NCBI GenBank assembly: GCA_938045585.1
Contig: CALIAU010000002.1
Location: 1-64,000 of the forward strand
Length of the DNA: 64,000 nucleotides
From: an uncultured Saprospiraceae bacterium
GTDB taxonomy: Bacteria; Bacteroidota; Bacteroidia; Chitinophagales; Saprospiraceae
Direction: 5' to 3'
Position 1 is the stretch's first letter; the number at the start of each line of letters is the position of its first letter. The notes beneath the pieces were generated by a model, which did no database searches, was not told the origin of the DNA, and saw only the letters and a program-made list of their open reading frames with translations. This document shows positions 23,153 to 53,198 of this stretch, piece after piece. Position numbers and translations under genes: made by a program.

Positions 23153-23188
23153 TAAAAAAAGCGCTCCAAATTTGGAGCGCTTTTTTAG
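23153..23188. terminator. Bidirectional terminator between porV and rnpB
   Basis: A perfect stem AAAAAAGCGCTCC with its complement (loop AAATTT region) carries A- and T-runs on both sides. It can end porV on the plus strand and rnpB on the minus strand. Confidence 0.9.
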
Positions 23189-23189
23189 T

Positions 23190-23545
23190 ATACAATAAGC
23201 CGGATCCTGTTAGAAATTGCGAAACAATCTCCCTCTATCATTTATCTAATCTGCCTACCCCTTTTGGCATGCTTAACATTCTGGCGAGAAACCATTTTCC
23301 TGACGGAACCAAAATATACATGACATTTCAACTTATAGGGTTTGTCCCACACAGTTGTTGCCAACTGTACGTGTGAGCTCTTACCTCACATTTTCACCCT
23401 TACCATTTATTAAAATGGCGGTTTAGCTTTCTGTGACACTTTCCATATTCTATTCTAAAATAGAACTCCAACTGTTAGTTGGTGTAACTCTCTACGTTGT
23501 CCAGACTTTCCTCCTTTTACTTAAAAAAGGCGATAGAGTATATAC
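23190..23545 (-). ncRNA. rnpB: RNase P RNA
   Basis: The minus strand contains the conserved RNase P core: GGAGGAAAGTCTGGACAACG near the 5' end, GGTAAGGGTGAAAATGTGAGG followed by GTAAGAGCTCACACG in the middle, and GGATCCGGCTTAT at the 3' end. The length of about 355 bases fits a type A bacterial RNA. It is the ribozyme that matures the 5' end of tRNAs. The ends are estimated from the promoter box and terminator. No protein gene occupies the gap between porV and the sensor kinase. Confidence 0.93.
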
Positions 23546-23551
23546 CTAGTA

Positions 23552-29019: not shown

Positions 29020-29150
29020 GGTGGTCAAGCCACCGCGTGAGTGGTGGGAGCAGTCCGTAGGAGTCCGAAGGACCTGGCTGCGGACGACACGACCTGCCTG
29101 CATGCGTCAGCAGGTAGGCACCTATTCTTGAATAGGTCTAGGGCACGCCC
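29020..29150 (-). repeat. Intergenic structured repeat, copy 1
   Basis: A GC-rich block lies between eno and the FtsB gene, unlike its AT-rich surroundings. Read on the minus strand it begins GGGCGTGCCC and contains hairpin CCTATTCAAGAATAGG. It then has a second stem (CCTGCCTGC with its partner) and GTCC-TTC-GGAC, and ends GGACTGCTCCCACCA then CTCACGCGGT, followed by a GGTGG/CCACC hairpin at 29020-29034. The core at 29032-29150 is 119 bases. The same ordered blocks recur at 53076-53194. Confidence 0.7.
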
Positions 29151-29158
29151 TAACTCAC

Positions 29159-31551
<2,393 letters not shown>

Positions 31552-53075: not shown

Positions 53076-53198
53076 GGGCGTGTCCCCTCTGTCTGCTAAT
53101 GCAGACTTTCAGGGTCGCTCCCTTTCAGGCTCCCTATTCGGTCGGCCCCATACTGGGTCTGGACTGCGTCCACCTTCCAGGCAGCTCACGCGGTACAC
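53076..53198 (+). repeat. Intergenic structured repeat, copy 2
   Basis: A GC-rich block begins GGGCGTGTCC and has hairpin GTCTGC-TAAT-GCAGAC at the same relative place as the first hairpin of copy 1. It continues with GGGTC/AGGG-type short stems and GGACTGCGTCCACC, and ends CTCACGCGGT. The core is 119 bases, the same as copy 1, in the opposite orientation. No coding frame in it looks real. The remaining gap between here and 53259 holds nothing else. Confidence 0.7.

Follow-up and report, generated by a model that had tools for sequence, protein, structure and literature searches.

A dispersed DNA element of about 110 nucleotides in Bacteroidota whose fold is kept while its letters vary

The intergenic block behind eno in the window, by which we mean the whole 64,000-nucleotide stretch of Saprospiraceae DNA that was analysed, belongs to a dispersed folded DNA element of about 110 nt that is present in about 100 copies in this genome and whose fold is kept while its letters vary. 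Relatives of the element are also present elsewhere within Bacteroidota. The analysis demonstrates a family, a covarying fold, a strand polarity, an intergenic scatter, the presence or absence of copies in two species of the same genus, and at least one site that has persisted with compensatory changes. The earlier note had proposed a multi-copy intergenic family with selection on structure, and had held that a total of two copies or a lack of covariation would speak against it; with about 100 copies and covarying helices, the proposal is supported.

A pattern scan of the 4.31-Mb genome finds 98 sites for GGGCGTGYC versus 5 for the reversed pattern, and a covariance model of the element (R1) returns 112 genome matches at E ≤ 1 from the 150 candidates scored out of 367. 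The element runs from GGGCGTG to CTCACGC plus a purine. We fetched and parsed 94 of the 98 sites, leaving out four on small contigs. A CTCACGC-type end is present in 81 and absent from 13, seven of which look by eye like chance matches within genes and six like truncated or decayed elements. A simple rule parsed 78 of the 81 copies into the helices P1 and P2 described below, and the other three are excluded from all counts of 78. The parsed copies are 83–185 nt long (median 113.5), and 97% of them carry CTCACGC plus a purine at the 3′ end. This common end bears out the conserved far-end block of the earlier note in part; however, the conserved portion is limited to these letters, as CACGCGGT occurs in only 7 of the 78. 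The sequence CTCACGCGGT has six occurrences in the 4.31-Mb genome, every one of them terminating an element 97–169 nt behind GGGCGT.

Both blocks described in the window exist where they were placed, share both ends and lie in opposite orientations (Table 1). Their cores, given as 119 bases each, are indeed equal in length, but each is 116 nt and the equality is chance, given the 83–185 nt span of the family. A further proposed common block, GGACTGC followed by CCACC, occupies a different part of the fold in each copy and is therefore probably coincidental. The claim that hairpin positions are kept while their sequences differ holds for both copies and, through covariation, for the whole family. 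Copy 1 starts 8 bases behind the stop codon of eno (identified by Pfam; ORF end at 29159), within the nine bases claimed. By eye, the two copies belong to different sequence subfamilies. The inner hairpin loops of copy 1 read GAA and GTA on the complement. Folded as single sequences with short flanks, copy 1 has a z of −1.1 and its complement −3.7, and copy 2 has −1.6 and its complement −1.8, which taken alone is weak evidence. A third copy lies at positions 64089–64209 of the same contig (C2), starting 89 bases past the end of the window.

Table 1 Features of the two element copies in the window (P0, P1 and P2 are the helices of the three-way junction).
Feature	Positions	Strand	Basis or detail
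Copy 1 (subfamily A), between eno and a DivIC-like gene	29035..29150	-	R1 27.8 bits, E 0.00087 in window; parsed ends
Copy 1 P0 5′ arm GCGTG	29144..29148	-	Parse; P0 covaries between genomes
Copy 1 P0 3′ arm CACGC	29035..29039	-	Parse
Copy 1 P1 junction arm, CCT/AGG base	29093..29142	-	Hairpin within 29120-29138; nested CCTGC..GCAGG palindrome 29093-29114
Copy 1 P2 5′ arm GTG	29088..29090	-	Parse; P2 covariation 66/78
Copy 1 P2 3′ arm CAC	29041..29043	-	Parse
Copy 1 two adjacent inner hairpins	29054..29073	-	GTCC TTC GGAC 29063-29073; TCC TAC GGA 29054-29062
Copy 2 (subfamily B), between convergent GNAT-like and polyprenyl-synthase-like genes (names by eye)	53076..53191	+	R1 85.2 bits, E 3.2e-15
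Copy 2 P0 5′ arm GCGTG	53078..53082	+	Parse
Copy 2 P0 3′ arm CACGC	53187..53191	+	Parse
Copy 2 P1 arm CCC/GGG	53084..53114	+	Contains hairpin GTCTGC TAAT GCAGAC 53091-53106
Copy 2 P2 5′ arm GCT	53117..53119	+	Parse
Copy 2 P2 3′ arm AGC	53183..53185	+	Parse
Copy 2 inner hairpin GGAC TGC GTCC	53161..53171	+	Complement loop GCA

The fold is a three-way junction, made of a closing stem P0, a variable hairpin P1 and a stem P2, which leads to P3 and a set of short hairpins. Read along the GGGCGTG strand, P0 (GCGTG/CACGC) is followed by one pyrimidine, the sequence-free hairpin P1, the letters TC and then P2 (G-N-N/N-N-C). Inward of P2 come a mismatch, two pairs, an internal loop, P3 and two to three short hairpins, and a single T sits between P2 and P0. 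All helices covary, P0 mainly between genomes. P2 is found as GGG/CCC, GTG/CAC, GCT/AGC, GTT/AAC, GGT/ACC, GGA/TCC, GTA/TAC, GCG/CGC and others, and both of its variable pairs are Watson–Crick in 66 of the 78 copies. Reshuffling the partners in 2000 trials gives 12.6 such copies on average and never more than 24, a comparison in which the observed value is favoured because the parse takes the best-pairing end.

Covariation was scored on three alignments. In a MAFFT alignment of 20 hand-picked copies of subfamilies B and D, 88.9% of the cells of 26 pairs are paired versus 73.6% when shuffled, and the covariation score is 0.394 versus 0.145 shuffled and at most 0.097 slid, the structure being favoured over its slid versions because it was drawn by eye from the same 20 copies. 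In alignments fitted to the model, and thus biased towards the structure by construction, 90.2% of cells are paired in 90 copies from this genome versus 70.2% shuffled, with 415 versus 134 cells changed on both sides; 68 distinct rows from other genomes give 88.0% versus 64.3%, with 415 versus 139 such cells. In all three alignments, sliding the partners by one to three columns abolishes the covariation. P0 is fully paired in 63 of the 68 other-genome rows (same genus included) with 11 different sequences, among them GCATC/GATGC, GCGCC/GGCGC, GTGTC/GACAC, GTGCG/CGCAC, GCGTT/AACGC and GCGAG/CTCGC, and five rows are not fully paired as aligned. Within this genome, 78 of 90 rows have GCGTG/CACGC, the rest including single cases of GTGTC/GACAC and GCATG/CATGC and four rows with an alignment gap.

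The two strands of the element are not equivalent. In 52 copies of at most 125 nt each, the complement of the GGGCGTG strand folds better against its own shuffles, with a mean DNA z of −2.62 versus −1.56 and a lower value in 49 of the 52; RNA parameters give −2.54 versus −1.38 (lower in 47 of 52). The loops are polarized in the same way. Hairpins with a stem of at least four pairs and a triloop number 115 in the 78 copies, and the inner hairpin loops are mostly TNC triloops, which are GNA on the complement and vary at N. C-GNA-G triloops occur 46 times on the complement (as C-TNC-G on the GGGCGTG strand) versus 1.2 expected, and once on the GGGCGTG strand versus 0.75 expected. UNCG and GNRA tetraloops are not enriched on the GGGCGTG strand of the 52 copies, with no UNCG (2.1 expected) and one GNRA (1.0 expected); the complement has seven GNRA (3.1 expected). 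GNA triloops closed by a C-G pair are unusually stable in DNA. As the same triloops could serve an RNA, a DNA fold is favoured and not proven.

The element is patchy across the phylum. R1 matches at E ≤ 0.01 are found in 10 of 60 genomes and, with only nine candidates scored per genome, in 16 of 395 phylum members (this genome included in both counts). Fuller scoring of 22 genomes at E ≤ 0.05 gives at least 115 matches in G014, 60 in G010, 27 in G031, 18 in G211, 12 in G431 and 1–7 in each of the other 17. As R1 is tuned to this genome and misses distant forms, a genome with no matches is no proof of absence. A scan of genome contigs with a 16-mer that is itself non-specific gave 110 stretches, and two of the 80 loci tested match R1, both named records being contigs of one Saprospiraceae MAG. 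Searches with one query copy each returned three partial matches of 37–39 nt (E 0.2) from plasmids and no match from phages, and two scans of viral contigs gave six and zero pattern matches, none of the six fitting R1.

Within the window, no Rfam family exceeds its gathering threshold on the element, and permissive mode on eight element loci gives five weak matches, the best at E 0.11. Rfam places a class A RNase P RNA elsewhere in the window, at 23181–23549 on the minus strand. A literature search, with subscription papers and supplements outside its scope, gave no recognisable description of the element among the top-ranked papers. This is a real family of dispersed folded intergenic elements that was not found named in the searches made here.

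To see how copies come and go, we placed 42 copies of a same-genus species (G001) against 2.06 Mb of this genome (G000). Nine have homology on both sides; a G000 element fills the gap in three of them and is missing from six, as R1 confirms. The remaining 33 have one-sided or no homology, and five of these adjoin a G000 copy (L367, L384, L413, L414 and L415). L384 is the only clear ortholog in a side-by-side comparison, and its fold is maintained through compensatory change: in P2, TT/AA has become CT/AG, and in the P5 stem GTAC/GTAC has become GTCC/GGAC, while the loop differs only at the N of GNA. By eye, independent insertion may account for L379 and L380, and L413 and L415 hold different subfamilies in the same gap; the G001 copy at L414 shows a mismatch in P2. 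At L383, one of the six sites without a G000 element, the difference in gap length is 100 nt, which fits the 106-nt copy. The eno site of G001 lacks the element, with no R1 match in the loci, and the flanking genes are about 225 bases closer; more than the element is missing, so this is not a clean empty site. The G000/G001 comparison yielded neither an empty site that is exact to the base nor a clean target-site duplication, and without a base-exact site no duplication can be named. Near-identical copies (93–98% alike) are found at three places with differing outer flanks, and two of the three also share the 8 nt before the element, so that their surroundings are in part alike.

The scatter of the copies, the sites that are not shared, the close likeness of copies at different places and the strand polarity fit a non-autonomous element that is handled as a folded single strand. 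Our leading explanation, held tentatively and at somewhat less than an even chance, is a dispersed element of about 110 nt that is non-autonomous, probably works as one folded single strand of DNA and is moved in trans by an enzyme. The working strand would be the one complementary to GGGCGTG, folded into a closed three-way junction, with C-GNA-G loops capping its hairpins and an internal loop that is structured. This fold would form in single-stranded or extruded DNA rather than in RNA, an enzyme acting in trans would move the element, and insertion would take place behind ATTT, as the conserved left flank suggests. That flank has T at 77–92% at positions −3 to −1 and A at 62% at −4, and the right neighbour is a purine. 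Bacteroidetes promoters carry the box TAnnTTTG; reading the ATTTG flank as a promoter was rejected, as the TA of the box is not conserved. The first 20 nt behind CTCACGC, checked in 40 copies for a longer unit with a 3′ tail, have a GC content of 0.43 versus 0.21 and no clear common sequence. Some copies (e.g. L075, L088, L095 and L047) have short degenerate repeat tracts (ACGGAC.., GAAACCGTGATACC..) behind the 3′ end. Against the mobile-DNA reading, the triloops and the energy asymmetry would likewise suit an RNA transcribed from the complement strand, no enzyme that moves the element was found, and there is no clean duplication or empty site. Known single-strand elements often favour the lagging strand, and a hand count with contig-level GC skew shows no side bias here (23 of 41 copies).

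By analogy, the element may work like a REP or attC-type single-strand substrate, while departing from both in the features by which these are recognised. Integron attC sites maintain a single-strand fold while their sequence changes and end in the motifs RYYYAAC and GTTRRRY. The element likewise keeps its fold while its sequence changes; unlike attC, it is scattered rather than in arrays, and the attC end motifs occur in 0 of the 78 copies. It shares a covarying multi-branch fold with the structured RNAs of Rfam, but no family there reaches threshold on the element in the window. Like MITEs, of which Porphyromonas gingivalis (PMC4596501) and Cardinium (PMC9769881) provide Bacteroidetes examples, the element is short, non-coding, dispersed and non-autonomous. 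It seems to differ from MITEs in having only a 5-bp covarying closing stem (the P0 arms, which vary in sequence) instead of conserved terminal inverted repeats; its entire interior is folded with covariation, and no parent transposon was seen for it.

A distinctly less probable explanation is that the copies are a cis-acting RNA or DNA element of the host, a transcript-end, stability or termination structure that has spread by rare copying events. Using crude gene calls (ORFs of at least 300 nt), 61 of 64 copies on the contigs examined lie outside ORF calls, and the three ORF calls that contain a copy (309–351 nt) are probably not genes. Of the 61 copies, tandem gaps hold 33, convergent gaps 21 and divergent gaps 7, versus 55, 18 and 27% of intergenic bases, with convergent gaps enriched (p 0.0015; p 0.0024 for divergent gaps). 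In 20 of 34 cases the GGG end follows a same-direction stop codon by at most 32 nt, whereas the other end is that close to a facing stop codon in 4 of 41 cases (Fisher p 1e-5, at a cut-off chosen after inspection of the list). This proximity is the best evidence that the element acts at gene ends, or else inserts preferentially there, and it speaks against a neutral reading pure and simple. Taken with this clustering, the compensatory changes that keep P2 and P5 intact in the L384 pair suggest use in place and not only past insertion. However, copies in tandem gaps have no orientation bias (13 sense and 20 antisense, p 0.30; 17 and 15 in a count over the 78 copies), there is by eye no run of T behind the fold, and the strand that would be present in those transcripts is the less stable one. 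The lack of an orientation bias weakens a general role at transcript ends, which had been offered as an alternative from the outset; it keeps some plausibility from the closeness of the GGG end to stop codons.

It is improbable that the copies are REP/BIME-type elements moved by a RAYT, a Y1 tyrosine transposase, possibly as atypical repeats of Bacteroidetes subclass 2.6, and the earlier suggestion of this kind is not supported. The element resembles the REP/BIME and RAYT (TnpA-REP) system in having about 100 dispersed intergenic copies that are folded, share common ends and avoid genes, and Y1 genes are found in 18 of 24 element-bearing genomes, this one included. Additionally, PMC6006769 describes atypical structures flanking the Bacteroidetes TnpA-REP genes of subclass 2.6, and further copies of these structures in other parts of the genome. 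A REP is a palindrome of 20–40 nt (PMC3733652), unlike this multi-helix junction of about 110 nt. Nor is a foot conserved: with 8 nt of flank counted in, 20 of the 78 copies have GTAG or GTGG no more than 18 nt from one of their ends, and 2 have CGTC. We found no mobilising enzyme for the element among the Y1 genes, the obvious suspects, which were examined at 20 loci in seven genomes; none of them is bordered by copies, so the RAYT gene flanked by a copy that the earlier note proposed to look for did not appear. The single convincing R1 match at these loci (L389, E 0.0011) is separated from the gene by about 660 nt, and a weak partial match at L388 (E 0.18) is a different tandem repeat beside the Y1 gene. 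In 14 further genomes, coordinates compared by eye give no Y1–element neighbours among the matches listed. Six of the 24 element-bearing genomes have no Y1 match: G014, with its at least 115 element matches, G346, G121, G141, G029 and G058.

The two Y1 genes found in this genome both lack a bordering copy and lie near palindromes of their own. The first (L098:900-2950), which is RAYT-like, is accompanied within 2.1 kb by three CCTGCCTGC palindromes; it also has a block of 140 nt with CAAGGGGTCATGACCCCTTG that is duplicated. A lone GGGCGTG beside it was considered as an element and rejected, as R1 finds none there. The second (L097:1335-2153; 150 aa, motif YIKEQEQHH) is bordered by long inverted repeats TGTACCTATAGACAGGGAT... 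and looks like a unit of its own. In G008, the Y1 gene of L388 has a different repeat on both sides (1320-1500 and 1970-2000; GGGCAGCGCCCATA / GAGCCTGAAAGGCTC and GGGCATCGCCCATA). The loops of many copies enclose another palindromic repeat, CCTGCCTGC...GCAGGCAGG (29093–29114 in the window; also L016, L030 and L048, for example). Its strict pattern occurs 18 times in 2.06 Mb, six of them inside elements covering 0.4% of that sequence, and the L098 Y1 gene may be its mover.

Two otherwise identical 95-nt copies (L031:1511-1527 and the minus-strand copy L046:2068-2162) carry P1 hairpins that are exact reverse complements of each other, so hairpins can flip, and mutation alone may explain part of the P1 variation; it hardly explains the variation of P0 and P2. 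Least probable of all is that the covariation as a whole arose from hairpin-perfecting mutation by template switching between arms rather than from selection on the fold: this P1 inversion is a mark of in-hairpin inversion, but the arms of P0 and P2 still match while lying far apart (in elements of up to 185 nt) with other helices between them, the inner loops are mostly of one type, and some junction letters are conserved across copies.

If the element is indeed a mobile single-stranded fold, it could belong to a class, spread across the phylum Bacteroidota, of single-stranded DNA folds that move or recombine with the help of an enzyme family whose link to them is yet to be made, an extension that we regard as possible but rather doubtful. 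The recognised object would then be the three-way junction with its C-GNA-G-capped arms and a closing stem that may be of many sequences if paired. Some Bacteroidota genomes hold 60 to more than 100 copies, no Rfam model matched the loci tested here, and the covariance model now makes the copies countable. Through the strand polarity it can be tested directly whether large single-stranded DNA folds are used by bacteria beyond integrons and REP elements, and gain, loss and selection become measurable in species pairs that have some copies in common and others not. Mobility would mean that a new enzyme link awaits discovery; a role in the host would be one common to about 100 sites of a single genome.
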